Shown: positions 34,400 to 62,724 of the stretch, one piece after another
How positions within the stretch are numbered: position 1 is the stretch's first letter
How the letters are laid out: the number at the start of each line of letters is the position of its first letter
Origin: Spirosoma sp. 48-14
Lineage (GTDB): Bacteria > Bacteroidota > Bacteroidia > Cytophagales > Spirosomataceae
Reading direction: 5' to 3'
DNA: 64,000 nucleotides
NCBI RefSeq assembly: GCF_001898575.1
Contig: NZ_MKUD01000018.1
Location: 61,747-125,746 of the forward strand
Translations under genes and position numbers: made by a program
Notes under the pieces: model-generated
What the model saw: the letters and a program-made list of their open reading frames with translations, nothing else
Told to the model about the DNA's origin: nothing
The model's database searches: none

Positions 34400-34428
34400 G
34401 AATCCAAATTCGTTCACTTTACTAAAAC

Positions 34429-36141: not shown

Positions 36142-36142
36142 C

Positions 36143-36221: not shown

Positions 36222-36230
36222 AAAGTAAAG

Positions 36231-40021: not shown

Positions 40022-40029
40022 TTTTCAGT

Positions 40030-41223: not shown

Positions 41224-41236
41224 AAATTCCGTCCGA

Positions 41237-41866
41237 ATGTTACAAACCTCGTTCAACGCTTTTACCGAAAACCTCCGGCAACGGTTACAGAAACCGTTGC
41301 CCGGTGAGGCTGCGCACCAGAAAATGGCGTCGGCAGCGCGGTATCGGCTGGGTATCAAACCCAACGAGCGGACACGTCGGAGTGCGGTCCTGATTTGTTT
41401 CTATCCCTTTCAGAACTCCATTTATTTACCGCTTATTCTTCGCCCTCAGTACGATGGCGTCCATGCCGGGCAAATGGCCTTTCCGGGTGGTCGCATGGAG
41501 CGATTCGATGAGAATCTGACCCGTACCGCCTTACGTGAATCGCAGGAAGAGGTTGGTATTCGGGTGTCGGATGTGAAGGTACTCGGCCTGCTCACGGAGC
41601 TATTCATCCCACCCAGCAATTTTTACGTACAGCCTGTGGTGGGTGTACTCCCCTACCGCCCTGACTTCTACCCCGACCCTCGTGAGGTAGAAGCCATTGT
41701 TGAAGTTGATCTGGAAACCTTGCTCGACGAAACCATCGTAGGCGATAGCCAGATCGAAGTACGGGGGGTACTGGTCGACGCACCATTCTACCAGATTCAG
41801 GGGCACCGGGTATGGGGGGCTACCGCCATGATGATTAGCGAATTGCTGATGCTACTGGATGCTTAA
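41237..41866 (+). CDS. NUDIX hydrolase (CoA pyrophosphatase-like)
   Basis: HAGQMAFPGGRMERFDENLTRTALRESQEEVGI: Nudix box. Confidence 0.95.
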   Translation: MLQTSFNAFTENLRQRLQKPLPGEAAHQKMASAARYRLGIKPNERTRRSAVLICFYPFQNSIYLPLILRPQYDGVHAGQMAFPGGRMERFDENLTRTALRESQEEVGIRVSDVKVLGLLTELFIPPSNFYVQPVVGVLPYRPDFYPDPREVEAIVEVDLETLLDETIVGDSQIEVRGVLVDAPFYQIQGHRVWGATAMMISELLMLLDA

Positions 41867-41869
41867 AAC

Positions 41870-44658: not shown

Positions 44659-44672
44659 TGTTCTTTCAAGAT

Positions 44673-45677: not shown

Positions 45678-45708
45678 GATAGTTTTATAATATTATATGA
45701 TAGTTTTA
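45676..45708. promoter_or_regulatory. Candidate regulator site in the TetR/ABC divergent region
   Basis: Direct repeat ATGATAGTTTTA at 45676 and 45697 (21-bp period), with palindrome TATAATATTATA between. Confidence 0.4.
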
Positions 45709-45796
45709 CTAATTTTAATGCAAATATAACTTTCTGTACTGATCGTTTGTTTAATTTGCGTCCCCTGTTTCGACAATTGGTTATAAATCAGGATAA

Positions 45797-46495
45797 ATGG
45801 AGTATTCTGTACATGTCCGCATGAACGAGCACCTGTTTCTGCGTGACCCTGAAAGCTCAGAACTAGGCCGGCGTATTGTTCGGCAAGGCATTTTACTGGT
45901 CAATGAGATTGGCTTTGAAGACACTACCTTTCGGAAATTAGCCGACCGGATGGGAACAAAAGAAGCTAGTATTTACCGCTACTTCGAGAACAAGCATCGG
46001 TTGTTGGTGTATCTGGTAGCCTGGTACTGGCAATGGCTCGAATTTCAACTGGTTTTCCAAACAAATAACCTAACCGACCCCCGTCAGAAACTGGAGAGGC
46101 TGATTCGTTTGCTTCTGTTCGTTGATCTGGACGAATCGCACAGCAAGGATATTGATTTGCGGGCACTTCACAACATTGTGGTACATGAGTCCAGCAAAGC
46201 GTATTTTACCCATCATGTGACTGAAGATAATCGACAGCAGTTGTTCAAACCGTATAAAGACCTCTGCCACCGCATTGCCGATATCATTCTGGCCTACAAT
46301 CCTACCTATCCCTATGCCCGATCGCTGGCCAGTTCACTCGTCGAAACAGCCCATTATCAGGCTTTTTTCATGGAGAACCTGCCAACTCTTACTGATTTTG
46401 GCTCGAAGGATATTACTAGGCAGTCGGAAGCCATGCATAAACTTCTGGGTTTTGTGCATCACCTACTGTTTGCCTCACTCGATGCCAACATTTAA
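45797..46495 (+). CDS. TetR/AcrR family transcriptional regulator
   Basis: RRIVRQGILLVNEIGFEDTTFRKLADRMGTKEASIYRYFENKHRLLVYLVAWYW. Confidence 0.93.
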   Translation: MEYSVHVRMNEHLFLRDPESSELGRRIVRQGILLVNEIGFEDTTFRKLADRMGTKEASIYRYFENKHRLLVYLVAWYWQWLEFQLVFQTNNLTDPRQKLERLIRLLLFVDLDESHSKDIDLRALHNIVVHESSKAYFTHHVTEDNRQQLFKPYKDLCHRIADIILAYNPTYPYARSLASSLVETAHYQAFFMENLPTLTDFGSKDITRQSEAMHKLLGFVHHLLFASLDANI

Positions 46496-46524
46496 GTATT
46501 GATTTCTGGCAAATGCTAAATGCC

Positions 46525-47169
46525 TTACTCCTGTTGAGCGTTCTTATACAGAGTTGCCAGATTAAAGGTCATACCTTCGGTAACGGTCACATCATGGTCC
46601 CAGCCGTCCCGAATTAAAATAGCATCAGCCGATTCAGACTCCCAGATGACAGGAATAGTTTCGGTAAAAATCCAGATCACTTTTTTAACCCCAAACTCGT
46701 GTAGCTGGCGCGTTTTTTTCACAAAATACTCATGCTGATAATGGTACTTACTCAGATCCGCTTTAGTATCAATTTCGATGACGTAATCGGGGGCAATAGG
46801 CATGTATTTGTTCGTCAGAGGAATACCCTTGAGTCGTGCTTTATCGTATAGAGCAATGTCACACGAACGCCATTTTTTTTTGTCGATCTGAACACCTAAT
46901 TCGCTGGCTAAGATGCGGAAGCGTTGCCGCAACGGATGCATAAACAGAAATTCCTGTAAAATTTCCACTAAATAACTCTGTAAGTAGCTTGCTCCCATAA
47001 TCGCTTCTGGCTCAAGAAGGCCCTTTAATACATCCCGGTAGCCAGCATAATAAATGGGCTTATCGTCCATTTCGTAGACGAGCTGACGTAACAAAAGTTG
47101 CCTTTGCCGACGTTGCTCAGGCGTTGGGACTATTTTCTGGGGTTTGCTTTTCTCCTCAACCGGTATCAT
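46525..47169 (-). CDS. Uma2 family (DUF820) PD-(D/E)XK nuclease-like protein
   Basis: YLQSYLVEILQEFLF...CDIALYDKARL...APDYVIEIDTKADLSKYHYQHEYFVKKTRQLHEFGVKKVIWIFTETIPVIWE. Confidence 0.7.
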   Translation of the reverse strand: MIPVEEKSKPQKIVPTPEQRRQRQLLLRQLVYEMDDKPIYYAGYRDVLKGLLEPEAIMGASYLQSYLVEILQEFLFMHPLRQRFRILASELGVQIDKKKWRSCDIALYDKARLKGIPLTNKYMPIAPDYVIEIDTKADLSKYHYQHEYFVKKTRQLHEFGVKKVIWIFTETIPVIWESESADAILIRDGWDHDVTVTEGMTFNLATLYKNAQQE

Positions 47170-47827
47170 AGCTCAATCCGTTTGCTGCAATATAGAGATA
47201 AACCTCTAACCTTAGGGCATTGGCCTTAACCCTTCCCATTTAAACTGCTAAGTGCCATTTTGTGAAAATCTGGATTCGGTTTTCTTTTACAACGATCCAT
47301 ACTACGCCTATCGCCCAGCCCACGCCTGACAAGAAAACAGCCTATGGTCATGAAAAGTCGATTGAGCATACATATTTAGGAAGAACAGTGGAAACAGTGG
47401 AAGGATACTCATCCAATTAGTGGCCCAATTTAGCGTTTGAGCCCCTTTAATGCTGACGAATGGATTATGATCGTAAAAAATATTATTTTTTTTCAGTTCA
47501 TTATGTCAAACAAACATTAAGTACTTCCTGAAAACGCAGTAAATACAATTTTTTGATAGCTTATAGTATATATTAGTAGTCAGCTTATTCATTTCTTGAG
47601 GCATATAGGCCGATTAACCAAAAAATAATAAGCTAATATGCAGTCATCAATAAGCATTTCTACGGATGGAACAGTTCATATTTCATCGTGGATTGCGTAA
47701 CAAAAAACATTCAGGGTCAGGCAACTACCGATTGTTATAGTCGCCAAGGTTAATAGCTTTGCAAATTGTAACAAATTCGGACTCTGAACCGTTAAAATCT
47801 TCGTTCTTTCTTGCAAATTATTACTCT

Positions 47828-48994
47828 GTGAAAAGGTGGATTGCTATCGGCCTCGTCGTTCTGGTTCTCGGCGGGATTATTGTGTATAATAAGATATTAC
47901 ATCCGGCTCCGGGAGCCGCTGGCGGTGGACCCGGTGGTGGAGGGGGCGGTGGTGGCCGAGGAGCCGCTGAAGGCGGAAAAGGCGGTGGCCCCGGCGGAAA
48001 AGGCGGCCCAGGTGGTGGCGGCCCGGCCAGTGTCCAGGGCTTTGTTGTCGTTTCCCAACGGCTGCAAGAAGATGTCGTTTCCAGTGGCTCGCTGCTGGCA
48101 GCCGAGCAAGTCGATATCTACCCTGAAATTTCAGCTCGAATCACACAACTGAACATTCGGGAAGGCCAACCTGTAACAAAAGGAGCTTTGCTGGTCAAAC
48201 TTTTCGACGCTGACCTGAAAGCGCAGCTTCAAAAATTACAGGCTCAGGCCGAAAACGCCCGTCGTACTGAAGAGCGTAATAAACAACTGCTGTCGCGGGG
48301 GGGGATTAGTCAGCAGGAATACGATATTGCCACGACAAACCTTCAGTCTTCCATAGCCGACATTGAACTGGTAAAGGCCAATTTGCAGCGTACCGAAATT
48401 CGGGCTCCTTTTTCGGGTATCATTGGGCTTCGGAATGTAAGTGCTGGTGCTGTTGTTTCGCCAAACACGCTCATTGCTCGTTTGCAACAAGTGTCGTCGC
48501 TGAAACTCGATTTTTCAATTCCTGAAAAATACGGTCCTTATGTGCATAATGGCAGTACGATTTCGTTTCTAGTAGACGGTGCTGCCAAACCCAGCGAAGG
48601 TGTTGTGTATGCCATCGAGCCGGGTGTGGAAGAGCAAACCCGTAACCTCCGCATTCGAGCTCGGGTCAACAACTCATCAGCCCGATTCCGACCTGGCACC
48701 TTTGCCCGTGTAACACTGACCGTACAGAATGAACAGAGCCTTGTTGTGCCAACGCAGGCTGTAATCCCGCAAACGCGCACCAATCAGGTGATTGTGGTAA
48801 AAAATGGAAAGGCTGTTTTCAAAGATGTAAAAACCGGCTTACGAACAGCAGGGGTTATTCAGATCTTATCGGGACTGGCGGCAGGCGATACAGTGGCAAC
48901 AACGGGTTTATTGTTCCTCAAACCTGATGCGCCTGTAAAAGTCGGCAAAGTAATTGGCGTACAGGGGAATGGCCCCAAAGTAGCGAGTAATTAA
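47828..48994 (+). CDS. RND efflux periplasmic adaptor (MFP) with Gly-rich linker
   Basis: GTG 47828: VKRWIAIGLVVLVLGGIIVYNKILHP; AAGGGPGGGGGGGGRGAAEGGKGGGPGGKGGPGGGGPA; ISARITQLNIREGQPVTKGALLVKLFDADLKAQL; RTEIRAPFSGIIGLRNVSAGAVVSPNTLIARL. Alternative TTG start at 47759. Confidence 0.92.
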   Translation: MKRWIAIGLVVLVLGGIIVYNKILHPAPGAAGGGPGGGGGGGGRGAAEGGKGGGPGGKGGPGGGGPASVQGFVVVSQRLQEDVVSSGSLLAAEQVDIYPEISARITQLNIREGQPVTKGALLVKLFDADLKAQLQKLQAQAENARRTEERNKQLLSRGGISQQEYDIATTNLQSSIADIELVKANLQRTEIRAPFSGIIGLRNVSAGAVVSPNTLIARLQQVSSLKLDFSIPEKYGPYVHNGSTISFLVDGAAKPSEGVVYAIEPGVEEQTRNLRIRARVNNSSARFRPGTFARVTLTVQNEQSLVVPTQAVIPQTRTNQVIVVKNGKAVFKDVKTGLRTAGVIQILSGLAAGDTVATTGLLFLKPDAPVKVGKVIGVQGNGPKVASN

Positions 48995-49105
48995 TGGTTC
49001 ATCGTATTCGGTTTATGGGTTCAGTTCACGGTGGATAGTCCATCGTCATTTACTGAACTAAAAATTGACTACTGAACCCCGTAAACTTTACAACTTCATA
49101 CAGCA

Positions 49106-52100
49106 ATGAGTCTCCCCGAACTAAGCTTAAATCGGCCCGTTTTCGCGATGGTGATGTCCATCGTGATCGTGCTGTTTGGTGTTATCGGCTTTACGTTCCT
49201 TGGTGTACGGGAGTATCCGGCTATTGATCCACCCGTTATTTCGGTTCGGACCAATTACACCGGTGCTAACCCTGAAATCATTGAGTCGCAGATTACAGAA
49301 CCCATCGAAAAATCGCTGAATAGTATCGAAGGCATTCGGACAATTTCATCGATCAGCGCCTTAGGTGCCAGTACGATTACGGTTGAGTTTAACCTCGACG
49401 CCAACCTCGAACAGGCAGCTAATGATGTACGCGATAAGGTAGCCCAAGCCCAACGTCAACTCCCGCAGGATATTGATGCTCCGCCGGTAGTTACAAAAGC
49501 CGATGCGAACTCAGATCCCATCATTTTTATGAATGTCCAGAGTACGACACGCAGCGCTACGCAACTGTCGGACTATGCGGAGAACGTACTTCAGGAACGG
49601 CTGCAAACGATTCCAGGGGTTAGCCAGGCCAATATTTTCGGGCTGAAACGTCAGGCGATGCGCCTTTGGATCGATCCGATCAAACTATCGGCCTATCGCT
49701 TGACTTCGCAGGATATTCAAGCCGCCCTGACCGCCCAGAACGTAGAGCTACCAGGTGGTAAAGTGTACGGAAATAATACGGAGTTGACCGTAAAAGCTGT
49801 TGGTCGACTGACCAGCGAAGACGATTTCAATAACCTGATTCTGCGCCAGACCAGTAACCAGATTATACGTTTCAAAGATGTAGGTTATGCGACGCTGGGT
49901 GCCGAAAACGAAGAAACCTCCTCAAAGCAAAACGGAACGGTAGGTGTCATTCTGGCCCTGATTCCTCAGCCAGGAGCCAACTACGTTAACATTGCAGACG
50001 AGTTCTATAAACGATTCGATCAGCTCAAAAAGGACTTACCCCCCGATATTATCGTTTATGTCGGAACCGACCGCAGTATCTTCATCCGTCGGGCTATTGA
50101 GGAAGTAGGCGAAACACTGCTGATCTCCTTTATACTGGTTGTACTGGTTATTTATCTCTTCTTCCGCGACTGGCTTATTGCCTTCCGTCCCCTGATCGAT
50201 ATTCCCGTATCGTTGATTGGCGCGTTCTTTATTATGTACGTGGCCGATTTCAGTATCAACGTATTGACACTGCTGGGTATCGTGCTTGCAACGGGCCTTG
50301 TGGTAGATGATGGTATCGTGGTTACGGAAAACATCTTTAAAAAGGTTGAAGATGGCATGGATACCGAGATGGCTGCCAAGGAAGGCTCGAACGAAATCTT
50401 CTTTGCGGTTATCTCCACATCCATCACCCTCGCTATTGTATTCCTGCCGATTATCTTTCTGCAAGGATTCGTCGGTCGTCTGTTCCGTGAGTTTGGTATC
50501 GTGGTGGCTGGTGCCGTATTAATCTCGGCCTTTGTTTCGCTGACACTGACGCCCGTATTGAGTGTAAAACTGACGAGTAAAAATCACGGCCGCTCCTGGT
50601 TCTACCGAAAGACGGAGCCATTTTTTGAATGGCTCGACGAATCCTACCGCGATTCGCTCAATGGGTTTATGAAGAAGCGAGGCTGGGCGTTTGCCATGAT
50701 TGGGGTGTGTCTGCTCCTGATCTTTGGCGTTGGTTCCCAACTCAAATCAGAGTTAGCTCCGTTGGAAGACCGAGGCCGTACCCGGATTGCCATTACCTCA
50801 CCAGAAGGAACCAGTTTCGAAGTGCAGTCGGCCATTACAGATAAGGTACTACAATTCGTACTGGATTCGATTCCTGAAAACAAGCTGGCATTTAGTGTAG
50901 TAGCACCGGGTTTCTCAGGCGCGGGGGCGGTGAACTCGTCGTTCGTGATGGTTAACATGGTCGATGCCGCCGATCGGAAGCGTTCGCAACAGGACATTGT
51001 CGATTACCTAACGAAAAACCTTCGGAAATTTAGCGAAGCCCGTATGTTTGCCACCCAGGATCAGACGATTCAGGTAGGTCGTCAGGGCGGTGGATTACCA
51101 GTTCAGTTCGTGATCCAGAATCTGAACTTTGAGAAGTTACGGGAAAAAATGCCTGCCTTCCTCGAAGAAGTGCAGAAAGACCCAACCTTCCTCAACTCAG
51201 ATGTTGACCTGAAATTCAACAAACCCGAATTGAACATCACCATCGAACGGGAGAAAGCAACGAACCTTGGCGTGTCGGTACAGGATGTAGCACAAACACT
51301 GCAACTTGCTCTCAGTAACCGTCGTCTGGCGTACTTCCTGATGAATGGAAAACAGTATCAGGTAATTGGGCAAGTTGATCGGCACGACCGCGATGAACCC
51401 GTCGATCTGGCGTCGTTCTACGTCCGCTCGAATCAGGGGCAGTTGATTCAGTTAGACAACCTCGTGAAGTTCCAGGAAGTAAGTAGCCCTCCGCAGGTAT
51501 ACCATTACAATCGCTTTAAGTCGGCGACGGTATCGGCAGGTCTGGCTCCTGGCAAAACAATTGGCGATGGCGTTGAAGCCATGCGTGCCATTGCAGCCCG
51601 CACTCTCGACGATACGTTCCAGACTGCCCTTTCCGGTCCCTCTCGCGATTACGCCGAAAGCTCATCCAATACCCTGTTTGCTTTCGGTCTGGCGCTGGTG
51701 CTGATTTACCTAGTCCTGGCGGCTCAGTTCGACTCGTTCATCGACCCATTCATCATCATGATGACCGTACCGCTGGCCTTGGCTGGGGCCGTCTTCTCGC
51801 TCTGGATGTTTAACCAGACGCTGAATATTTTCAGCCAGATCGGGATTATCATGCTGGTGGGTCTTGTTACGAAAAACGGAATTCTGATTGTGGAATTTGC
51901 CAATGAACAGCGGCTATTGGGCAAAAATAAATTTGAAGCGGCTGCGGAGTCGGCAGCCTTGCGCCTTCGTCCGATTCTGATGACGACCCTTGTAGCTGCC
52001 TTTGGCGCACTGCCGCTGGCAATGGCGTTGGGTTCAGCCTCAAAAAGCCGCGTACCACTGGGGATTGTGATTGTGGGAGGTTTACTTTTCTCGCTGGTTC

Positions 52101-52219
52101 TTACCTTGTATGTAGTACCAGTTATTTACACCTACATGACCCGGCGGAAAGATGTGAAACCCGTTGAACCGCAAGCTGGGGAAACGCCAAAACCAGCTCA
52201 GCAGAAAGTACACGCATAA
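49106..52219 (+). CDS. RND efflux transporter permease (AcrB/HAE1 family)
   Basis: MSLPELSLNRPVFAMVMSIVIVLFGVIGFTFLGVREYPAIDPPVISVRTNYTGANPEIIESQITEPIEKSLNSIEGI...GLVVDDGIVVTENIFKKVEDGM; 1037 aa. Confidence 0.98.
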   Translation: MSLPELSLNRPVFAMVMSIVIVLFGVIGFTFLGVREYPAIDPPVISVRTNYTGANPEIIESQITEPIEKSLNSIEGIRTISSISALGASTITVEFNLDANLEQAANDVRDKVAQAQRQLPQDIDAPPVVTKADANSDPIIFMNVQSTTRSATQLSDYAENVLQERLQTIPGVSQANIFGLKRQAMRLWIDPIKLSAYRLTSQDIQAALTAQNVELPGGKVYGNNTELTVKAVGRLTSEDDFNNLILRQTSNQIIRFKDVGYATLGAENEETSSKQNGTVGVILALIPQPGANYVNIADEFYKRFDQLKKDLPPDIIVYVGTDRSIFIRRAIEEVGETLLISFILVVLVIYLFFRDWLIAFRPLIDIPVSLIGAFFIMYVADFSINVLTLLGIVLATGLVVDDGIVVTENIFKKVEDGMDTEMAAKEGSNEIFFAVISTSITLAIVFLPIIFLQGFVGRLFREFGIVVAGAVLISAFVSLTLTPVLSVKLTSKNHGRSWFYRKTEPFFEWLDESYRDSLNGFMKKRGWAFAMIGVCLLLIFGVGSQLKSELAPLEDRGRTRIAITSPEGTSFEVQSAITDKVLQFVLDSIPENKLAFSVVAPGFSGAGAVNSSFVMVNMVDAADRKRSQQDIVDYLTKNLRKFSEARMFATQDQTIQVGRQGGGLPVQFVIQNLNFEKLREKMPAFLEEVQKDPTFLNSDVDLKFNKPELNITIEREKATNLGVSVQDVAQTLQLALSNRRLAYFLMNGKQYQVIGQVDRHDRDEPVDLASFYVRSNQGQLIQLDNLVKFQEVSSPPQVYHYNRFKSATVSAGLAPGKTIGDGVEAMRAIAARTLDDTFQTALSGPSRDYAESSSNTLFAFGLALVLIYLVLAAQFDSFIDPFIIMMTVPLALAGAVFSLWMFNQTLNIFSQIGIIMLVGLVTKNGILIVEFANEQRLLGKNKFEAAAESAALRLRPILMTTLVAAFGALPLAMALGSASKSRVPLGIVIVGGLLFSLVLTLYVVPVIYTYMTRRKDVKPVEPQAGETPKPAQQKVHA

Positions 52220-52256
52220 CAGAAAAGAGCCTCCAGGCTAACTAACCATAGACGTG

Positions 52257-52302
52257 TTCAGGGGGAGAATCTGAGTTAATCAGGTTCTCCCCCTGACTGT
52301 TT
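52257..52302 (+). terminator. Terminator after the RND permease
   Basis: CAGGGGGAGAATCT...AGGTTCTCCCCCTG followed by ACTGTTTTTA. Confidence 0.65.
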
Positions 52303-52412
52303 TTATAGATTATCCGATCAATTCAGCATCCGAAAGGTTATAAACAGCTGCATTTATACTTCTTTCTTTTTAGGCCATCCTTCACCAACCCTGGCCTCCT
52401 CGGATAAAACGA

Positions 52413-53594
52413 ATGAAATCGCTCCTACCCTTTTTGCTGGTGATGCTGGTCAGTACAGCATTTGCGCAATCGTCCATTAATGTTGATAAAGAGTTTACGT
52501 TTGCCGCCCAGCAATATCAGGGCATGCTGAAAAGCCATCCCGACACGACTAAATTCCCCCAGTCGACCAAGCCTGATGGATCGCCCGATGATCGGAAATC
52601 AGACTGGTGGTGCAGTGGCTTCTTTGGCGGCTCGCTCTGGCATATCTACGAACGGACGAAGGCGCCCATGTGGAAGGAAGCCGCCAATAAATGGACTATG
52701 GCTGTGGCAAAGGAACAATACAATACAGGGACACACGACCTGGGTTTTATGATCTACTGCCCGTTTGGGAATGGCTATCGCCTGACTAAGAACGAGACCT
52801 ACCCACCCATCATGCTCACAGGTGCTAAATCGCTATCGACTCGGTTCAATCCTAAAGTGGGTGTAATTAAGTCGTGGAATAAATTTCAGAATTATGACTA
52901 CCCGGTTATCATTGACAACATGATGAATCTGGAGTTTTTATTCTGGGCGGCCAAACGGTCGGGCAATAAGGAGTTTTATAACATCTGCGTTACCCATGCC
53001 GATAATACCATCAAGAACCATTATCGTCCTGATTACAGCAGCTACCACGTCGTTTGTTACAACCCCGATGGAACGGTAGCAGCGAAGAAAACGGCGCAAG
53101 GTTATGCCGATAATTCGGCCTGGGCACGTGGGCAAGCCTGGGGGTTATACGGCTTTACGGTCATGTATCGCGAAACGAAAGATAAAAAGTACCTCGACTT
53201 TGCCCGACATATTGCTGACTTCTACCTGAATCATCCGAACCTACCTGCCGATAAGATTCCGTATTGGGATTTCAATGCCCCCAATATTCCGAATGAAGAG
53301 CGGGATGCTTCGGCCGGAGCCATTACGGCTTCTGCTCTGCTTGAACTGTGCACATACGGCGGCCCTTCGGCCAAAACATATTATCAGGCAGCGGTGAAAA
53401 TGTTGGAAAGCCTGTCGAGCCCGGCCTATAAAGCCAATTTGGGAGAGAACAATCACTTCATCCTGAAACACAGCGTTGGTCACAAACCAGCCAAGAGTGA
53501 AGTAGATACCCCAATTATTTATGCAGACTATTACTATCTGGAAGCGTTACTCCGTTACGATGCGTTGTCTAAAAAGCCCGGATTTAAACTCTAA
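52413..53594 (+). CDS. Glycoside hydrolase family 88 (unsaturated glucuronyl hydrolase-like)
   Basis: Signal peptide; SDWWCSGFFGGSLWHIYERT...HDLGFMIYCPFGNGYRL...QGYADNSAWARGQAWGLYGFTVMYRETKDKKYLDFARHIADFYLNH...ERDASAGAITASALLEL. Confidence 0.93.
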   Translation: MKSLLPFLLVMLVSTAFAQSSINVDKEFTFAAQQYQGMLKSHPDTTKFPQSTKPDGSPDDRKSDWWCSGFFGGSLWHIYERTKAPMWKEAANKWTMAVAKEQYNTGTHDLGFMIYCPFGNGYRLTKNETYPPIMLTGAKSLSTRFNPKVGVIKSWNKFQNYDYPVIIDNMMNLEFLFWAAKRSGNKEFYNICVTHADNTIKNHYRPDYSSYHVVCYNPDGTVAAKKTAQGYADNSAWARGQAWGLYGFTVMYRETKDKKYLDFARHIADFYLNHPNLPADKIPYWDFNAPNIPNEERDASAGAITASALLELCTYGGPSAKTYYQAAVKMLESLSSPAYKANLGENNHFILKHSVGHKPAKSEVDTPIIYADYYYLEALLRYDALSKKPGFKL

Positions 53595-53598
53595 TTTT

Positions 53599-53652
53599 CG
53601 GTTTTTGGTTAGCTGACACACGGTTGCTTTCGTATCAGCTAACCAAAAACCG
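53599..53652. terminator. Terminator-like hairpin between convergent genes
   Basis: CGGTTTTTGGTTAGCTGA (53599-53616) / TCAGCTAACCAAAAACCG (53635-53652), 18-bp perfect. Confidence 0.65.
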
Positions 53653-53670
53653 GATACTGTAATCCACTAT

Positions 53671-54375
53671 TTATTCTTCACGCTTGATTGTCTGAACGGT
53701 AACAATTGTTGGGGCAGATAAATAAAAATCGAACAGCGAACGGCCCAGTATCTCATGGCTAATAGCATTCAGATGGTCGCCATCGCTATTAATAAAATAT
53801 TCTTCTTTAGGGCGAATCACCGAATCCGTATCAAAAACACTGAATAACTGGTCATCAGCCTCATTAAGTACAATGGTTCGACTCCGTTGTTGTAGCCACT
53901 GATCAACTCGATTCAGGTGCGGAAATGGAGTCAGCAGCAACACACTATGCCGATACGGCTTTAATTTCTTTAATAAGCAGGAAAATATAAGCGAACGGTT
54001 AGGCCGCACAAACGACAGGACGCCATCCCGAACCGCACTCAGGCGATTCTTTAAAGCTGATCCGTCCGACTGTTTGAACCGAACAGATGAATATGGCAAT
54101 ATAGGTGTAGCCAACGTGTTAGCACAGTGCAACTGACCGTGAGCCGACTGAAGGAGCGAAGCATCCAATTGGACAACAATCAGATCATAGCGATTAAGAG
54201 GCAATTGCGATAACGTAGCTACAATCTGCGGAATGGTCAGATGCGCGTAGGCTTCAACAGTAACAGTTTGACCAGCCCGGCTGATTTGCCGGATAAAATG
54301 ACCGATATAGTTTAACTTTCCTCCTGGCAAGCCATACCCATATGTATGTTCATCGCCAATAACCAGCACATTCAT
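53671..54375 (-). CDS. SGNH/GDSL-hydrolase-like hypothetical protein
   Basis: MNVLVIGDEHTYGYGLPGGKLNYIGHFIRQI...LNRYDLIVVQLDASLL...NSDGDHLNAISHEILGRSLFDFYL. Confidence 0.55.
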   Translation of the reverse strand: MNVLVIGDEHTYGYGLPGGKLNYIGHFIRQISRAGQTVTVEAYAHLTIPQIVATLSQLPLNRYDLIVVQLDASLLQSAHGQLHCANTLATPILPYSSVRFKQSDGSALKNRLSAVRDGVLSFVRPNRSLIFSCLLKKLKPYRHSVLLLTPFPHLNRVDQWLQQRSRTIVLNEADDQLFSVFDTDSVIRPKEEYFINSDGDHLNAISHEILGRSLFDFYLSAPTIVTVQTIKREE

Positions 54376-54682
54376 TCGGTGATGCCAATAGGCTGAATAA
54401 ACCCATTTCCTATCGTTACGTTATTGGCCCGCAAACTGTGGCAAGAAATAGAAATTAATTATCAACTTAAACAATAATTGCAACGTTATACGGTTAAAGA
54501 GCGTAGTAGTAAATAATCGTTTATTACGGGTTCGACTGATACGCAAGATTTAGTACTATACCGGCCTTTCCCCTTGATTTCCAGAAGGCTGCGTAAAAAG
54601 ATCTGGCGAATCGACACAGCTCATACGAATTGAATGAATTAAGTATTTACAATCAGGGCGTTTACGTAAATCTGACAGAACT

Positions 54683-55291
54683 TTGTTTTTTCGCAAATCA
54701 TCTTCGTTCTCCGAAAATGACCTGCTTAGCGTCATAAGGGCTTGTCGTACCAACGACCCCCGTGCCCAACGGACGCTGTTCAAGCAATTTTTTGGGTACG
54801 CTAAAAGCATCTGTCTACGGTATACCTCCAATGTCGAAGAGGCCGAAGATGTTCTGAATGAGGGCTTTCTTAAAGCCTTTCAGCATCTGGATAGTTACGA
54901 CGAAACCTTACCGTTCAAAGCCTGGCTACGTACTATTCTGGTCAACACGGCTATCAGTCACTACCGAAAGAACCATCGTTTTGATCAGCATACGTCACTG
55001 GAAACTGGCGAGCAGGTAGCGTTTGACGAAAACGTCGTCGATCAGATTGCTGCCGAAGAAATCCTGGCATTAGTTCAACAATTAACCCCTACCTACCGTA
55101 CTGTATTTATGATGCATGTAGTGGATGGCTATAGCCTACACGAGATTGCAGGAATATTGAACCATAATGAAGCGACGGTGCGCTCCAATTACGCCCGCGC
55201 CCGACAAAAATTACAATTACTCATCAAACAAGCGTATCCTTTTTACGAAAAGGCTGGCCCTGGGGCTGGCTTTCCATATCATGAGCACTGA
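54683..55291 (+). CDS. ECF-type RNA polymerase sigma factor
   Basis: ACRTNDPRAQRTLFKQFFGYAKSICLRYTSNVEEAEDVLNEGFLKAFQHLDSYDETLPFKAWLRTILVNTAISHYRK...YRTVFMMHVVDGYSLHEIAGILNHNEATVRSNYARARQKLQ; TTG start. Confidence 0.95.
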   Translation: MFFRKSSSFSENDLLSVIRACRTNDPRAQRTLFKQFFGYAKSICLRYTSNVEEAEDVLNEGFLKAFQHLDSYDETLPFKAWLRTILVNTAISHYRKNHRFDQHTSLETGEQVAFDENVVDQIAAEEILALVQQLTPTYRTVFMMHVVDGYSLHEIAGILNHNEATVRSNYARARQKLQLLIKQAYPFYEKAGPGAGFPYHEH

Positions 55292-56993
55292 CCGATTTTC
55301 CGATATTATCCGGCGAAAACTGGAAAGTATTCGGCCGGAATTTACTGAAAAAGACTGGGCCCGAATGCAGGCAACCCTGCATCAGGCTGGTCCTCCTCAG
55401 GCCGGTCCGACGGCTACCGGTAAGCCCTTTAGCGGGGGTGTCTGGACAGGGCAGCCCTGGCTACTGGCAGCAGCCAGCGTCAGCACGGCCTTGCTGATCG
55501 CCTACAGCGTCTGGCAACGTACCGAAATTAACCACTTGCGTGAAACCATTGGGCAACTGAAAAAACAGCCTGCCAGCAATCAGACTGTGCCTAAATCTGT
55601 TGAGGGTGATCGGCCGGATGTATCGCAGGCTGAAGGAATCCATCAACCGCTGCAACAGCATGAGTCGCTGACTGCGTCTGCCCTGAAAGAGGAGGTAGCC
55701 ACTCGTCACGATACGGTCTACATTACCCGGTATATAACGACTCCGGCACAACCACGTCTGGATATCCCCTTGCGTGATCGATTTAAACAGCCAACCGAAA
55801 CACCTCCTGAACAACGCTACGCCACGGCTAGTCGTGCGCCTTCCACAGGTAGTCTGTCGCGTCAGGAACGTAACCTAAACAAGAACCTTAAAACCAGCCC
55901 ATATGGTGTTTCCTCTACTCCGTTAACGAATGATAGTACCTCTAATGCGCCTAACCAGACTGCCATCATCCATGAACACTCAACTCCTGCCGGCCTGAAT
56001 CAGCCAGAAGAGCGAGTGGCAAGCGGCCGGGATCGGAGCATCAATTCTCGCGACAACCAAACACGAAACGTTCCATCCGGGACAAAGGGAAATTATTCGG
56101 GGACCCGGGATAATAGTCCGGTCAATTCATCGGCTAAGCCTGCCAATTCGGTGGTCGATACTGAGGGAGTAGTAGCTATAAATGAGCCGCAGTCTACGGA
56201 AACGGAACGCACACAGAGTGCCCCAGCGGGCAACTATGAACTGTTGGCAGGCCGTCCTTTATCGACCGACAACGCGAACTGGAATGCGCTTCTTGCACAA
56301 CGTGCCCGCCGGATGCGTCCTACCCGTACAACTGTGGTTACTGGCCAGACGCAAGCCCCCGAAAGCCAGCGAATCGAACCCGCCATTGCTAAATTCCGGG
56401 CGGGTATAGGTGGAGAGGTGAGTGCCCATCTTTGGAGCGCTGGTGCGTTTGCCGAAATGCCAATTGGCAAAAACGTTATGGTTGGGGTTGGCCTAAGCCG
56501 GGCGGTCTATCTGGGCGGTACATTTCTGACAGCCTATGATTTTGATACCCGTACTCGTCGGAATTTCAAGCAGGAATTTGGTCGTCAGCTTCCCCCAACG
56601 GTCAATTATGATAGTGACGTTCTCGATATCGACACGCGGGTTATTCGCATGCAGATTCCAATTACGGTAGGTTATCGAGTTCCGTTGTCCCGGTCGCTGA
56701 CGTTCCAGCCTACGATGGGTACGTTTATGAATCTGAGCAGCAAGGAAAAAGTTACCTATTACTACCGGGTTCCGCAACGAGGTTTCAACCAGATCGATTT
56801 CAGTACCGATTGTGGAACGGATTTATTTAGCGGATTCACCTTTAGCACGGGTCTTGAGTGGCAACGTAAGGGGTGGGTACTACAAGGTATACCTACGCTT
56901 ACCCTCCCTACGTCAGTGGCTACTTTGCCAGGGCCAAGCTGGGAAAACAATACGACCGTTGGCCTGCGAGTCAGGCTGATGTATCAGTTTTAG
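55281..56993 (+). CDS. Anti-sigma-like inner-membrane N terminus with outer-membrane beta-barrel-like C terminus
   Basis: Start ATG 55281 overlaps the sigma factor stop; one TM (PWLLAAASVSTALLIAYSVW), Ser/Thr/Asn-rich linker, C-terminal beta-rich module ending in ENNTTVGLRVRLMYQF. Confidence 0.75.
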   Translation: MSTDRFSDIIRRKLESIRPEFTEKDWARMQATLHQAGPPQAGPTATGKPFSGGVWTGQPWLLAAASVSTALLIAYSVWQRTEINHLRETIGQLKKQPASNQTVPKSVEGDRPDVSQAEGIHQPLQQHESLTASALKEEVATRHDTVYITRYITTPAQPRLDIPLRDRFKQPTETPPEQRYATASRAPSTGSLSRQERNLNKNLKTSPYGVSSTPLTNDSTSNAPNQTAIIHEHSTPAGLNQPEERVASGRDRSINSRDNQTRNVPSGTKGNYSGTRDNSPVNSSAKPANSVVDTEGVVAINEPQSTETERTQSAPAGNYELLAGRPLSTDNANWNALLAQRARRMRPTRTTVVTGQTQAPESQRIEPAIAKFRAGIGGEVSAHLWSAGAFAEMPIGKNVMVGVGLSRAVYLGGTFLTAYDFDTRTRRNFKQEFGRQLPPTVNYDSDVLDIDTRVIRMQIPITVGYRVPLSRSLTFQPTMGTFMNLSSKEKVTYYYRVPQRGFNQIDFSTDCGTDLFSGFTFSTGLEWQRKGWVLQGIPTLTLPTSVATLPGPSWENNTTVGLRVRLMYQF

Positions 56994-57005
56994 CAATTGT
57001 TACCT

Positions 57006-57060
57006 GCTTTAAATAGAACATCCCGAAAGCGTTACGTTTTCGGGATGTTCTATTTAAAGC
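57006..57060. terminator. Bidirectional terminator between convergent genes
   Basis: GCTTTAAATAGAACATCCCGAAA (57006-57028) / TTTCGGGATGTTCTATTTAAAGC (57038-57060), 23-bp perfect. Confidence 0.8.
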
Positions 57061-57065
57061 CATTT

Positions 57066-58382
57066 TTACTTCGTAGCCGAAACCCGCCAGATGCGCCCAC
57101 TGGCATCATCGGCCACGAACATTGCCCCATCCTTAAGCACCGTAACGCCAACAGGTCGCCCATAGGCTTCGTTATCATTACCTGTAAGGAATCCGGTTAA
57201 AAAGTCTTCTGGTTCACCGGGTTTCCCATTTTGGAAAGGAACAAAAACAACTTTATATCCGACAAGCTGTGAGCGGTTCCAGGAACCATGCTGGCCAATA
57301 AATGCCCCATTCTGGTAATGAGCCGGGAACTGTGTTTTATCGTAAAAAGCCAATCCCAGAGAAGCGGTATGCGAGCCCAGCGGCACATCAGGTACGATCG
57401 TCTTTTTTACTAAATCAGGCCGTTCTCCTTTCCGACGTGGATCTTCGTGCTGGCCAAAATAGGCATAAGGCCAGCCATAAAAAGCGCCTTCTTTAACACT
57501 GGTCAGGTAATCTGGCACCAGATCATCACCCAGTTCATCACGCTCATTGACGGCCGTATACAACACGCTTGTCGTTGGCTCCCAATCCATACCTACCGGA
57601 TTTCGCAGGCCAGCCGCGAAAATGCGTTCGCCCGTACCGTCGGGGTTAACTTCCAGAATATTGGCCCGACGGATTTCATTTTCAGGGCCGTTTTCACCCA
57701 CGTTACTTCCCGACCCAACAGAGATATAGATTTTCTTTCCATCAGGGCCAGCCAGCAGGTTCCGCGTCCAGTGATTGTTGTAGCCGCCAGCCGGTAAATC
57801 CACGATCTTCTTGCCTGGTGTTTTCATCGTTGTCTGGCCCGCTTTGTAGTCGTAGCGAAATAGACCATCCGTGTTGGCAACATAGAAATAGTTTCCCAAG
57901 ACCAACATGCCAAATGGCTGATTCAGGCCTGTCAGGAAGGTTTCTTTCAGATCAGGTTTACCATCTTGGTTCGTATCCCGAAAGAGTGTGATTCGATTGG
58001 CGCTGGTGCCCGTTTCCTGCGATTTACCTTTATCCGAAGCGGCATTTATCACCTTTTCTTTCAGACCATTTTGTTCGGTATTAGCCTCAGCAACAAAGAT
58101 ATCGCCATTGGGGGCTTCGTAAATCCAACGAGGGCTCTTCAGATCACGGGCAAATTCGGTAACGGTAAACCCAGCAGGGGCTTTTGGTATTTTGCCTTCC
58201 GGCCAGCCGACCACGTTACTAAATTTAGTTGACGATTTGGTAGCGTATGGAGCGGGCAGCTCAATGGTAGTATCGACCATGGCTACCGAATCGCTGGACT
58301 GATCGGTATTTTTCTTCTGACTACAGGCCAGAAAAGCGGCTGAAAGTACAGCCGTTGTAAAAAGATAAGGTATGATTTTCAT
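57066..58382 (-). CDS. PQQ-dependent sugar dehydrogenase-type lipoprotein (sorbosone dehydrogenase-like)
   Basis: Lipobox LSAAFLACSQ; VTEFARDLKSPRWIYEAPNGDIFVAEANT...GGYNNHWTRNLLAGPDGKKIYISVGSGSNVGENGPENEIRRANILEVNPDGTGERIFAAGLRNPVGMDWEP...GQHGSWNRSQLVGYKVVFVPF. Confidence 0.95.
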   Translation of the reverse strand: MKIIPYLFTTAVLSAAFLACSQKKNTDQSSDSVAMVDTTIELPAPYATKSSTKFSNVVGWPEGKIPKAPAGFTVTEFARDLKSPRWIYEAPNGDIFVAEANTEQNGLKEKVINAASDKGKSQETGTSANRITLFRDTNQDGKPDLKETFLTGLNQPFGMLVLGNYFYVANTDGLFRYDYKAGQTTMKTPGKKIVDLPAGGYNNHWTRNLLAGPDGKKIYISVGSGSNVGENGPENEIRRANILEVNPDGTGERIFAAGLRNPVGMDWEPTTSVLYTAVNERDELGDDLVPDYLTSVKEGAFYGWPYAYFGQHEDPRRKGERPDLVKKTIVPDVPLGSHTASLGLAFYDKTQFPAHYQNGAFIGQHGSWNRSQLVGYKVVFVPFQNGKPGEPEDFLTGFLTGNDNEAYGRPVGVTVLKDGAMFVADDASGRIWRVSATK

Positions 58383-58386
58383 CGTT

Positions 58387-58426
58387 GAGTTGAGTCAATA
58401 CGTAGCTTACTGCAATGACTCAACTC
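58387..58426 (-). terminator. Hairpin downstream of the small secreted protein gene
   Basis: GAGTTGAGTCA / TGACTCAACTC, 11-bp perfect arms. Confidence 0.5.
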
Positions 58427-58449
58427 CATGATTAATCATTTGGTTACGC

Positions 58450-58806
58450 CTAATCCTTTTTTGCGGTCAGCGTCGATCCTTCAATAGCCATCGAGAAACC
58501 CGTCACGGCTTTGGTAGCCGCATCCCAGATAAAGGTAATTACAGAGCCATACGAACTTGTTGACTTGAACGTATCGGCTTTGTCCTGCTTCAATAACTTA
58601 TTTTTGCCATAGCTGTCGGCCTCGCCATACAATTCCCCTTTATCAGCAGTCAACGTAAATTTCTGAATGGGGCTCCCACTTTCAAAGGTATACGAGCCTG
58701 TGTATGGTTTGAGAGCGACTGAATCCGCAACCGTAGTTTGTGCATTTGACGGAGTAGCCAAAGCAACCAAAGCTATTCCTACTAGCAGTGTTAAAATCGT
58801 TTTCAT
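58450..58806 (-). CDS. Small secreted hypothetical protein
   Basis: Signal peptide MKTILTLLVGIALVALATPSNAQ; LKPYTGSYTFESGSPIQKFTLTADKGELYGEADSYGKNKLL. Confidence 0.75.
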   Translation of the reverse strand: MKTILTLLVGIALVALATPSNAQTTVADSVALKPYTGSYTFESGSPIQKFTLTADKGELYGEADSYGKNKLLKQDKADTFKSTSSYGSVITFIWDAATKAVTGFSMAIEGSTLTAKKD

Positions 58807-58832
58807 AAATCAGTTAGGCGTTAGGAGATGAT

Positions 58833-59264
58833 TCATAGCAAGGTACGCGAAAATTTGGCATATGGAATCGGCCCCTTGTAAAACACATCACTGACAGCCT
58901 CCATCCCGAAACGTCGGTAAAAGTCAGCCGCATCCAGACGGGCATCGCACCAGAGTGTGGTCGCGCCCAGCCGACGAGCCTCGTCAATAACCTGATTCAG
59001 GAGTTGGGTACCAATTCCACGTCGCTGGTAGTCGGGCCGGGCGGCAAATTTTCGGAAACGGGCCATCCCTCCATCAACAAACAGGGAAATCACAGCCACC
59101 AGGTCATCCGCCAGAAAGGCGCCAAAGTGGTATCCTTCGGAATCATTTTCTACTTTCACATACTCAAACGGTTTATCGGGCCAGAGCACCGCATGGCGAA
59201 GTGGATAGGTTTGTTCGGGCGTTATTACACGGATCGTAATCGCGGAAGACAGTGAGTCGTTCAT
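58833..59264 (-). CDS. GNAT family N-acetyltransferase
   Basis: LADDLVAVISLFVDGGMARFRKFAARPDYQRRGIGTQLLNQVIDEARRLGATTLWCDARLDAADFYRRFGMEAV. Confidence 0.95.
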   Translation of the reverse strand: MNDSLSSAITIRVITPEQTYPLRHAVLWPDKPFEYVKVENDSEGYHFGAFLADDLVAVISLFVDGGMARFRKFAARPDYQRRGIGTQLLNQVIDEARRLGATTLWCDARLDAADFYRRFGMEAVSDVFYKGPIPYAKFSRTLL

Positions 59265-59497
59265 TGGGGTATCAGGTCAATATCGAACCATTTCTGCAAA
59301 CATAACAGGATCGTTTTGAAAATATCGGCGAGTATCCGTATCGCAATTTTTACTCTTAGTCTAGCATAATCGTACTATATCAACTTACAGCTTTGTCGCT
59401 CCTGGAGGGCAAAACGGGTAGAAATTTCTCGTAGCATTCATTTACTAATAAGTGAGCAGAAAAATCAATACACACGCATTTTTATAACCTGAATAGG

Positions 59498-60835
59498 ATG
59501 AACAATTCCAGAAGAGAGTTTATTAAAAAAGCGGCCTTAGGTACTGCGGGTTTTACGATCGGTGGCCTAGGCATGTCGGCTAAAAGTTATGCCAAAATTA
59601 TTGGCGCTAACGAACGCATTCATGTTGCCATTGCCGGACTTGGCCGACGACTGGGCGCTTATTATGAACCCATTTCACGAAAAGAAAGTAATGTCGAGTT
59701 GATGTACCTCTGCGATGTTATGCAAAAACAGCGGGAATCAGCGCTTCAAAAATTTTCGAAATACATCGATTACAAGCCCAAACTGGAAAACGATCTCCGC
59801 AAGGTGATTGCCGATAAAAACGTCGATGTGCTGATCAATGCCACACCCGACCACTGGCATACTCCCGGCACCTGCCTGGCTGTGCAGGGAGGCAAACACG
59901 TGTATGTCGAAAAACCGTGCAGCCACAACCCACGCGAAGGCGAAATTCTGGTCGAATACCAGAAAAAGTACGGCAAGGTCATTCAGATGGGAAATCAGCA
60001 GCGTTCGGCAGTTGAGTCGATCGATATCATCAATCAGATTCACAAGGGCGTTATCGGAACAGCGTATAAAGCGGTAGCCTTTTATGTTGCCAACCGGGGC
60101 GAAGTCCCTGTTCCGAAGGCAGCACCCGTACCGCAAGGCCTCGACTGGGAGTTGTTTCAGGGGCCCGCTCCCCGTATGGACTATACCCACGACACATGGG
60201 ACTACAACTGGCACTGGTATGGCTGGCTCTATGGAACAGCCGAAGCGGGCAACAATGCTACGCATGAGCTGGACGTAGCTCGCTGGGCTTTGCAGGTAGA
60301 ATTTCCCGAACACGTTACGGTAGAAGCGGCCAAACGCCACTTCCTGAATGATGGCTGGGTCATGTACGACACCATGGATGCGACCTATCGTTTTCCGGGC
60401 AATAAAATCATTAAGTGGGATGGCAAAAGCCGGAATGGCTACAAAACCTACGGCAGCGACCGGGGCACTATCATTTACGGCACCAATGGCAGTGTATACG
60501 TTGATCGAAATGGCTATAAACTATTCGACCGGGATGGCAAAGAAGTGAAAAGCAGTAAATCGCAGGGCAACGAAGCCGGAACAGCGTTAGGTGGCGGGGG
60601 AGATATGACTACCCGACATGTCGTTAATTTCTTCGAAGCGGTACGGGGTAAAGAGAAACAGGCATCTACCATTGAAGAAGGGGCCAGAAGTACGTTACTT
60701 TGCCACTTAGCCAACATCGCTTATCGAACGAATAAATCGCTCGATATAGACCCTAAAAATGGCCATATCCACGATAAAGACGCCATGAAACTCTGGAGTC
60801 GGGAATACGCGAAAGGTTGGGCTCCCATTGTTTAA
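59498..60835 (+). CDS. Gfo/Idh/MocA family oxidoreductase with twin-arginine-like leader
   Basis: MNNSRREFIKKAALGTAGFTIGGLGMSAKSYAK; RIHVAIAGLGRRLGAYY; VDVLINATPDHWHTPGTCLAVQGGKHVYVEKPCSHN. Confidence 0.95.
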   Translation: MNNSRREFIKKAALGTAGFTIGGLGMSAKSYAKIIGANERIHVAIAGLGRRLGAYYEPISRKESNVELMYLCDVMQKQRESALQKFSKYIDYKPKLENDLRKVIADKNVDVLINATPDHWHTPGTCLAVQGGKHVYVEKPCSHNPREGEILVEYQKKYGKVIQMGNQQRSAVESIDIINQIHKGVIGTAYKAVAFYVANRGEVPVPKAAPVPQGLDWELFQGPAPRMDYTHDTWDYNWHWYGWLYGTAEAGNNATHELDVARWALQVEFPEHVTVEAAKRHFLNDGWVMYDTMDATYRFPGNKIIKWDGKSRNGYKTYGSDRGTIIYGTNGSVYVDRNGYKLFDRDGKEVKSSKSQGNEAGTALGGGGDMTTRHVVNFFEAVRGKEKQASTIEEGARSTLLCHLANIAYRTNKSLDIDPKNGHIHDKDAMKLWSREYAKGWAPIV

Positions 60836-60880
60836 GACCTCGCTGGTCATCAATCAATGCTCCTCTGCGGAAAGAGTTAC

Positions 60881-60913
60881 ACTGGATTTGTTGCATAAGA
60901 AGTAACGAATCCA
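60881..60913 (+). terminator. Hairpin downstream of the oxidoreductase
   Basis: CTGGATTTGTT-GCATAAGAAGT-AACGAATCCAG, one G.T pair. Confidence 0.4.
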
Positions 60914-60939
60914 GTCTTCTACGCAACATTACCGGATAG

Positions 60940-61064
60940 GCCTATACGATCAATGCTTTAGATACCTTGAGCCGTGAGATTGAAAACGCTGTGATGCCTA
61001 CGGGCCTCGTCCCCCCCCCCTCTACTACGAAGAATTCGCGTCGCTGATCACCTTCCTGTCTTAG
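60940..61064 (+). pseudogene. Possible C-terminal remnant of a c-type-cytochrome/membrane-bound dehydrogenase-like gene, frame broken at a C10 tract
   Basis: AYTINALDTLSREIENAVMPTGLVPPP, then in a shifted frame LYYEEFASLITFLS*; resembles the xxMPxGLxxxLxxxEFAxLxxFLS ending. No start codon or upstream body. Confidence 0.35.
61011..61020. repeat. Homopolymer C10
   Basis: Ten consecutive C between GGGCCTCGT and TCTACTACG. Confidence 0.95.
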
Positions 61065-61070
61065 CAGAAC

Positions 61071-61166
61071 TTGTAAAGAGCGAAAGTGCGCATGAGTGAA
61101 AGAGCGAATAGCCTACTCTGGCTAATAGTTCGCTCTTTCACTCATGCGCACTTTCGCTCTTTACAA
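61071..61166. repeat. Long perfect hairpin, period-8 arms (family B copy 2)
   Basis: 38-bp perfect arms TTGTAAAGAGCGAAAGTGCGCATGAGTGAAAGAGCGAA (61071-61108) and its reverse complement (61129-61166). Inner TAGCC/GGCTA extends the stem with a 4-nt bulge. Arm = AGAGCGAA|AGTGCGCA|TGAGTGAA|AGAGCGAA. Confidence 0.9.
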
Positions 61167-62639
61167 ATGTATATCGTAGGCTTTAAGCTTGTTATACAGC
61201 GTTTTGCGATCGATATTGAGGACTTCAGCGGCTTTGGTTTTGTTATAACCTGTTTTCTCAAGCACTTTCAGGATGGCAGCCCGCTCGGCATTTTCCGATA
61301 CCGATTTCAGGTTACCTCCCGATTGTGTGAATACAGGAATTCCTGGACGAGCCGGATCATAATTGATCTGAATGTTGGCAGGCACCGTTTCTTCCGGACT
61401 GAAATATTGCGGAGAAATAATTTCCTGTGGCAATACGTCAGCTTCGATGTAGTCACCGGGTGTTAGCAGTACAGCTCGTTTCACCACGTTCTGCAACTCA
61501 CGCAGATTACCATGCCAGTAGTAATCCTTCAGCTTCTCTTTAGCCTCTTCCTCAAACCCCAGAATGTCTTTCTCTAGCTGCTGATTAGCGACTTCAAGGA
61601 AGTGATCGGCAAAGATCATAATATCCGATTTGCGCTCCCGCAAAGGCGATAAATGCATTTCGAACTCGGCAATCCGATGATAGATATCCTCCCGGAATTT
61701 TCCTTGCCGAACGGCCTCACGCAAATCCTCGTTCGTAGCGACAATAATCCGGACATCGACGGGAATATCCTGGTTGCTACCAATACGCCGGATCTTACGT
61801 TCCTGCAACACACGTAGTAGCTTTATCTGATTGTCGTACGAAAGGTTACCGATTTCATCCAGGAATATAGTACCGCCGTTGGCGTATTCAAAACTGCCCG
61901 CCTTATCCGACATAGCCCCCGTAAATGATCCCTTGATGTGACCAAACAGTTCGCTACCAGCCAGTTCCTTACTCAGAGCGCCACAGTCGATAGCCACAAA
62001 TGGTTTATCAGCCCGTTTACTTTTGAGGTGGATCGCGTTGGCTACAAATTCTTTTCCAGTACCCGTCTCACCCGTTATAATCACCGACATATCTGTCGGA
62101 GCAATTAAGTCAATGTGTTTCTGAAGTTGCTCAGCAGCGCGACTTTTTCCAAAGATGAACCGTTTTCCGTCCGGAGCTAAAGCCGTTTTGGCCGGGGCCG
62201 TCCTGGCACCACTCGTTTTGGTAGCTGTGGCAGAACCATTGGGCGAAGTAGCACTTTTCGCCTGGTTAAGCGATTGAGCCCGTCGCTCAAGAGCTGCCTT
62301 AATGGTATACAGGATTTCGTCGGGATAAAGCGGCTTTGTTACGTAATCATAAGCGCCGTGTTTGACTGTTTGCACAGCCATTCGAACGTCGGAGTAGCCC
62401 GTGATGATAATGACGGCAGTGGTAGGATGCATGACCTTGATACGACGAAGCATTTCAAGACCATCAATATCAGGAAGTTTAAAATCGCAAATGACTAGTT
62501 CAAATGCTTCTTTTCTCAACAGGACTAACCCATCATCCCCACGCTGTACCGACGCAGTTTTATAGCCTTGTTTGCTCAGAAAACGCTCTAGCAACAGGCA
62601 TATGTCATTGTTATCGTCAATAATCAGAATTTTTTCCAT
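61161..62639 (-). CDS. Sigma-54-dependent response regulator (NtrC/AtoC family)
   Basis: MEKILIIDDNNDICLLLERFLSKQGYKT...VIICDFKLPDIDGLEMLRRIK-type REC; MSVIITGETGTGKEFVANAIHLKS; GSFTGAMSDKAGSFEYANGGTIFLDEIGNL; Fis-type HTH AAILKVLEKTGYNKTKAAEVLNIDRKTLYNKLKAY. ORF track extends to 62678. Confidence 0.97.
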   Translation of the reverse strand: MEKILIIDDNNDICLLLERFLSKQGYKTASVQRGDDGLVLLRKEAFELVICDFKLPDIDGLEMLRRIKVMHPTTAVIIITGYSDVRMAVQTVKHGAYDYVTKPLYPDEILYTIKAALERRAQSLNQAKSATSPNGSATATKTSGARTAPAKTALAPDGKRFIFGKSRAAEQLQKHIDLIAPTDMSVIITGETGTGKEFVANAIHLKSKRADKPFVAIDCGALSKELAGSELFGHIKGSFTGAMSDKAGSFEYANGGTIFLDEIGNLSYDNQIKLLRVLQERKIRRIGSNQDIPVDVRIIVATNEDLREAVRQGKFREDIYHRIAEFEMHLSPLRERKSDIMIFADHFLEVANQQLEKDILGFEEEAKEKLKDYYWHGNLRELQNVVKRAVLLTPGDYIEADVLPQEIISPQYFSPEETVPANIQINYDPARPGIPVFTQSGGNLKSVSENAERAAILKVLEKTGYNKTKAAEVLNIDRKTLYNKLKAYDIHL

Positions 62640-62724
62640 GAAGAAGCATTGAACTTGTTCAGACAGACCATGTCCCATTTATGAACAACGAAAAAATCTA
62701 TCCAAGCTGTATGAACAAAGTTAC

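Follow-up and report, generated by a model that had tools for sequence, protein, structure and literature searches.

Co-changing and swapped arms of gene-end hairpins in Spirosoma suggest that DNA replication templates one arm on the other

The window analyzed here, a stretch of 64,000 nucleotides from the 8.68-Mb genome of Spirosoma sp. 48-14 (G000), contains two long hairpins with arms of 8-nt periodicity, each located at the 3' end of a gene (Table 1). Copy 1 follows a gene for an outer-membrane-type protein, and copy 2 follows ntrC, coding for an NtrC-type sigma-54 response regulator. An earlier note, made from the letters of this stretch, described both elements, and its description was confirmed: the 38-nt arms of copy 2 and the 37-nt arms of copy 1 are 100% complementary, RNA folding places an asymmetric bulge of 4 nt near the tip of the former and of 3 nt in the latter, the coding regions end with TTG-TAA-AGAGCG (ntrC) and AAT-TAA-AGAGCG (copy-1 gene), and the three differences between the left arms of the two copies are mirrored in the right arms. 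The RNA-folding z-scores are -14.3 for copy 2 and -14.1 for copy 1. Neither stem is immediately followed by a U-tract; past the copy 2 stem the sense strand of ntrC reads GUUCUGCU, which contains no canonical U-tract. No match to Rfam families was found anywhere in the window.

Table 1. Features of the window related to the two period-8 hairpins.
Feature	Position	Strand	Remarks
Outer-membrane-beta-barrel-like gene	1746..2462	+	Ends ...LLSIGFSVN*; ancestral convergent neighbour of ntrC
Copy 1, left arm	2460..2496	+	37 nt; starts with the TAA that ends the outer-membrane-type gene
Copy 1, loop	2497..2511	.	ATGGCTGACGTCAGC; 3-nt bulge, inner stem
Copy 1, right arm	2512..2548	+	
Segment of about 58.5 kb between the two formerly adjacent genes	2549..61070	.	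Only in the clade of G000, G001 and G015
3' remnant of convergent gene, c-type cytochrome/HEAT-repeat protein	60836..61070	+	Read directly; intact, 922 aa, in G001
Copy 2 of the period-8 hairpin, left arm	61071..61108	+	38 nt; perfect complement of 61129-61166
Copy 2, loop region	61109..61128	.	20 nt; inner 5-bp stem, 4-nt asymmetric bulge (RNA folding)
Copy 2, right arm	61129..61166	+	Holds ntrC stop 61161-61163 (TTA on +) and last codon TTG 61164-61166
NtrC-type sigma-54 response regulator gene	61161..62678	-	C-terminus AYDIHL* in all genus orthologues examined

The 3' ends of ntrC and the copy-1 gene face each other as neighbours, 56 to 130 nt apart and with a single hairpin for both, in 27 of 30 congeners as well as in Larkinella, Fibrella, Fibrivirga, Arsenicibacter and Roseivirga. 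Only in Spirosoma sp. 48-14, its sister species (G001) and Spirosoma panaciterrae DSM 21099 (G015) are the two genes located about 58.5-60 kb apart, with their orientation unchanged and a period-8 hairpin for each. Synteny with the congener G022 breaks exactly at both hairpins (window positions 2463-2592 and 61070-61160). The ancestral adjacency of the genes and the location of these breaks indicate that a single ancestral terminator site was split, with one copy in the window marking each side of it, and gene-end hairpins may be hot spots of rearrangement. Transfer of the 58.5-kb segment as a single block is not supported, its two end genes being 2 Mb apart in G022. The break may have arisen by recombination of two hairpins already in place, though G022 has no hairpin beside Nif3. 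A later deletion in the genome of sp. 48-14 removed about 2.6 kb from the new convergent partner of ntrC, so that this gene is now a fragment. The remnant carries a run of 10 C's at about 61013-61022.

The possibility raised in the earlier note that the element brought the stop codon of ntrC is refuted by comparison with other species. In 30 of 30 congeners the encoded protein terminates in AYDIHL* with no shift in its last residue, and the stop codon, which may be TAA, TAG or TGA, keeps its position whether it is followed by a period-8 hairpin, by another repeat family or by an ordinary terminator. Since the stop has not moved under differing hairpins, it is older than the element.

In all 30 Spirosoma orthologues a hairpin starts at most 36 nt from the ntrC stop. 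At least six families are found at this site, and parsimony on the ntrC tree gives about 12 family switches and no loss; the number of switches is approximate because families were assigned by eye. The arms are of the period-8 type in G000, G001 and G015, of a GTAAGT type in G022, G003 and G032, and of the TTGAATGA type in others, while classical terminators occur at the site in G010, G027, G007 and more genomes, one example at the ntrC position comprising an A-tract, a GC stem and a U-tract (TAAAAAAGCCAAACG...CGTTTGGCTTTTTTA). As in intrinsic terminators, a stable stem-loop lies directly downstream of the stop codon, and in several congeners the stem is followed by a U-tract. The site always holds a hairpin, the arms of which are replaced wholesale between species, yet stay matched. 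Judging from these orthologues, the ntrC element occupies a permanent terminator site with turnover of sequence. Given the position of the hairpin and the classical terminators that occupy this site in other species, its most likely role is at the 3' end, in termination or in protection of the mRNA end. As the period-8 hairpin has no canonical U-tract, the proposed role in termination is based on its position and on what replaces it in other species.

The ntrC-site arms of G000 and G001 differ by matched changes only, including a C inserted in both arms. The non-coding flank beside the stem is CTTG in G000 and AAAG in G001, and the G000 stem thereby reaches the last codon of ntrC. A pair of convergent TAA stops is inherently an inverted repeat; those of G001 form both ends of the ntrC-site stem. 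The inclusion of the stop codon in the stem would be explained by this pre-existing inverted repeat and by the outward extension of the arms.

The two copies in the window belong, as the earlier note had supposed, to a dispersed family of hairpins with a common 8-mer grammar (GAGYGAAW, period 8), which numbers hundreds of copies in the genome. A threefold WGAGYGAA pattern, with up to 3 mismatches allowed, gave 325 + 315 matches, compared with one for the reversed pattern. The period-8 motif is present in 36 of 36 Spirosoma genomes searched; within the family, 21 of 36 genera have it. Among 396 genomes representing a sample of the phylum, three contain a stricter hairpin pattern; all belong to the family, and this sample yielded no period-8 hairpin outside it. 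A literature search for an earlier description in Spirosoma returned nothing relevant. The same grammar at hundreds of sites throughout the genus would be expected if the 8-mer motif were selected by a sequence-specific DNA- or RNA-binding protein, such as a nucleoid or 3'-end factor. This explanation is highly improbable, since the sister species have unrelated sequences at the same site and the number of matches per strand varies from about 5 to 250 among congeners.

Period-8 elements are one of several families of hairpins at gene 3' ends, the others including AATGAATAATGG, ACAGGATTNA, TTGAATGA, GTATGATG and GTCATTCTGAGGAACGAAG, as well as ordinary A-tract/GC/T-tract terminators. In three Spirosoma genomes sampled, every 100 kb contains 6 to 12 hairpins with a score of at least 20 matched pairs, and none was found in 250 kb of E. 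coli; dinucleotide shuffling of the 125-kb contig produced no stem with a score of at least 12.

Other families are represented within the window. A period-7 hairpin (AATGAATAATGGATAATGAGC...) is located at 15620-15705, with GTATGATG-type hairpins at the orthologous sites in G001 and G015; Arsenicibacter and some Larkinella likewise carry the period-7 family at the 3' end of ntrC. A TTTGTCATTCTGAGGAACGAAGAATCT-type hairpin lies between convergent genes at 36143-36221, where S. panaciterrae has an unrelated ATAGAACGCAGATTCGTATGATT hairpin instead. A tip or loop motif, GGCTGACGC / GCGTCAGCC, is shared by a minority of gene-end hairpins with otherwise unrelated arms, including those of other genera (G000 C1:395574, 492837, 547924, 718046 and 744663; L056, L059 and L164). 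The loop motif GCGTCAGC was considered as a universal core and rejected: hairpins, which make up about 1% of the bases, contain 14 of its 92 occurrences, an enrichment, yet only a minority of them carry it.

The association of long hairpins with gene ends was analyzed in 2.3 Mb of three genomes, with any simple ORF call of 120 codons or longer taken as a gene; distances to gene starts were left unused because of this definition. Within 100 nt after a stop codon were 222 of 256 long hairpins, compared with 36% of random intergenic points, and the gaps between convergent genes hold 71 of the 256 (28% vs 6%). The overlap with a stop codon seen in the window is a general feature, the stems of 20 of 36 period-8 hairpins overlapping the end of a CDS as against 40 of 221 other hairpins (p = 6e-6). 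At C1:572161 a direct reading revealed that a family swap shifted the stop of the gene by about two codons; stop changes therefore occur elsewhere, though not at ntrC.

Paired changes are likewise not limited to the two window copies and extend to other genomic copies and to orthologous ones, as the earlier note had anticipated. In gap-free alignments of orthologous stems, made with one genome per species and ambiguous within short repeats, 27, 43 and 22 two-sided Watson-Crick changes were observed, where 4.6, 10.6 and 4.7 would be expected if the arms changed independently. Paired or clustered changes restoring arm identity are thus 4- to 6-fold above independence, as template switching would produce.

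Covariation is the standard proof of a selected RNA structure, and the hairpins could be terminators selected purely as RNA, their arms co-changing by ordinary compensatory evolution via G-U intermediates with no copying at the DNA level. Their location at gene ends agrees with this. The only type of switch with a single G-U intermediate is the A-T to G-C transition, which accounts for just 38 of the 92 two-sided switches, leaving 59% for which no such intermediate is possible. The terminators of B. cereus are known to evolve by compensatory changes, with GU making up 89.5% and AC 10.5% of the intermediates and A-T to G-C transitions 79% of the switches (PMC5381666). The standing mismatches of long Spirosoma hairpins transcribed in one direction comprise 33 sense G-U and 30 A-C, a ratio differing from 89.5% (p = 1e-13) but not from 50% (p = 0.8), with standing mismatches here being set against inferred intermediates in B. 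cereus. In shorter hairpins with tight loops G-U outnumbers A-C by 31 to 15, and this excess indicates that RNA selection also acts. E. coli terminators, used as a control for the G-U test, provided only 15 suitable stems with 1 mismatch.

Two further kinds of change were revealed by comparison with the sister species. The loop is inverted relative to its flanks in 4 of 52 orthologous hairpins of G000 and G001, including C18:51423 and C1:631299, against a null expectation of 0. Whole hairpins have been exchanged for other families between flanks conserved to the base (C18:77366, C18:97889, C1:572161, C1:595316 and C1:631299), and the old hairpin leaves no remnant. Inverted loops and wholesale replacement of arms, together with the equality of G-U and A-C in long stems and the switches lacking a single G-U intermediate, leave selection on RNA alone a distinctly improbable cause. 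Paired changes alone are no proof of RNA selection, and DNA-level copying is indicated by the inverted loops and by the outcome of the G-U test. Because the covariation was apparently produced largely by such copying, signals of the R-scape type could be misread.

The matched changes could also arise if different members of a mobile miniature element (REP-, MITE- or REPIN-like), mobilized by a transposase in trans and preferentially tolerated just after stop codons, were inserted at the same site. Hundreds of copies per genome, restriction to one family and TAAAGAG ends on both sides of many copies are consistent with mobility. Like REP, BIME and REPIN sequences associated with RAYT (PMC3733652, PMC2817692, PMC3116915), the period-8 hairpins are high-copy extragenic palindromes found near gene 3' ends, for the most part behind genes and in the gaps of convergent pairs, but their arms are longer, perfect and of short period. 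The unpaired GTAG or CGTC tag at one end that defines REP/RAYT (PMC3733652) is absent from the flanks and ends of the 35 copies listed, and no RAYT is adjacent; six Y1-transposase loci were examined and none has period-8 hairpins at its flanks, although one copy lies about 1.4 kb from a Y1 gene. The same genome does contain a genuine RAYT, which favours mobility, but it is flanked by another palindrome family (GTAACGCGGGTGGAAACCCGC), and the period-8 hairpin was on this ground rejected as the RAYT-linked REP of the genome. Clean empty sites, for example at C1:579695, were observed for other hairpin families and not for period-8 copies. Sites of period-8 hairpins in G000 are usually hairpin sites in G001 and G015 too, hairpins are swapped with no trace of the previous one, and insertion does not explain the matched arm changes of orthologous copies with homologous loops. 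A mobile element is for these reasons rather unlikely, while retaining some weight.

The whole of the evidence is best accommodated, with a fair degree of probability, by a hairpin standing at an ancestral bidirectional-terminator site at the 3' end of ntrC, its arms rewritten mainly by DNA-level copying and filtered by selection for termination. Copying is favoured by the matched arms, the absent G-U preference, the transversion switches and the inverted loops. More generally, the co-changing and swapped arms of Spirosoma gene-end hairpins suggest that replication uses one arm as the template of the other, and that RNA selection is not the sole agent. The ancestor would have been a bidirectional terminator between the two convergent genes. 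During replication this sequence could fold back, so that one arm is templated from the other by quasipalindrome correction through template switching, which would keep the arms matched while lengthening and rewriting them. Selection for a strong 3'-end hairpin in both directions of transcription would filter the outcomes. Short-period arms such as GAGYGAAW would be favoured, as out-of-register fold-back adds whole units, and arm copying running outward into the fixed coding end would bring the stop codon inside the stem.

Quasipalindrome correction by template switching during replication was reportedly described by van Noort and colleagues in 2003. Common to that process and to the Spirosoma hairpins are changes of several bases, matched between the arms, by which perfect stems arise and stay perfect. 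Template switching has been described for RNA genes (Monttinen & Loytynoja 2022, PMC8794818); the Spirosoma case, proposed from sequence comparison, would differ from known examples in acting on gene-end hairpins that occur naturally by the hundreds in one genus and in rewriting whole arms and loops. The bidirectional intrinsic terminators of B. cereus (PMC5381666) are similar in their location just after stop codons, in being common to convergent genes and in their paired Watson-Crick changes. Unlike them, the Spirosoma hairpins have arms of 25-38 bp instead of the usual short stems, are replaced by unrelated families, undergo loop inversions and have no excess of G-U over A-C in long stems, and the period-8 type has no U-tract beyond the stem.

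Copying between arms accounts for their matching and not for the same 8-mer at hundreds of sites, and some dispersal process must exist; transposition by some enzyme and copying between sites are both possible. A broader and more tentative proposal is that of a genome-wide pool of hairpins, in which template switching at replication would continually rewrite each arm from its partner and hairpins at other sites would serve as sources of overwriting, function being inherited as position and structure while the sequence is a spreading repeat. In this genus the origin and upkeep of long perfect stems are directly testable on hundreds of natural hairpins that evolve fast while keeping their positions, and family swapping at a constant site makes sequence conservation a poor guide to the conservation of terminators.

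A separate, genuine REP/RAYT family is present in Spirosoma sp. 48-14 (GTAACGCGGG...). Hairpins of the GTAACGCGGGTGGAAACCCGC type are located on both sides of a RAYT-size Y1 transposase gene (L102:1126-1214 and 1864-1940; contig C1, near 318616); their loops are mirror images, and the GTAACGCGGGTGGAAACCCGC palindrome is dispersed at other sites. Judging from this arrangement, the flanked gene and its palindromes make up a true Spirosoma REP/RAYT system. At C1:579695-579775 and C1:569264-569317 hairpins are inserted where G001 has near-clean empty sites, as has S. panaciterrae at the latter position, and these two are possible recent mobile palindromes.
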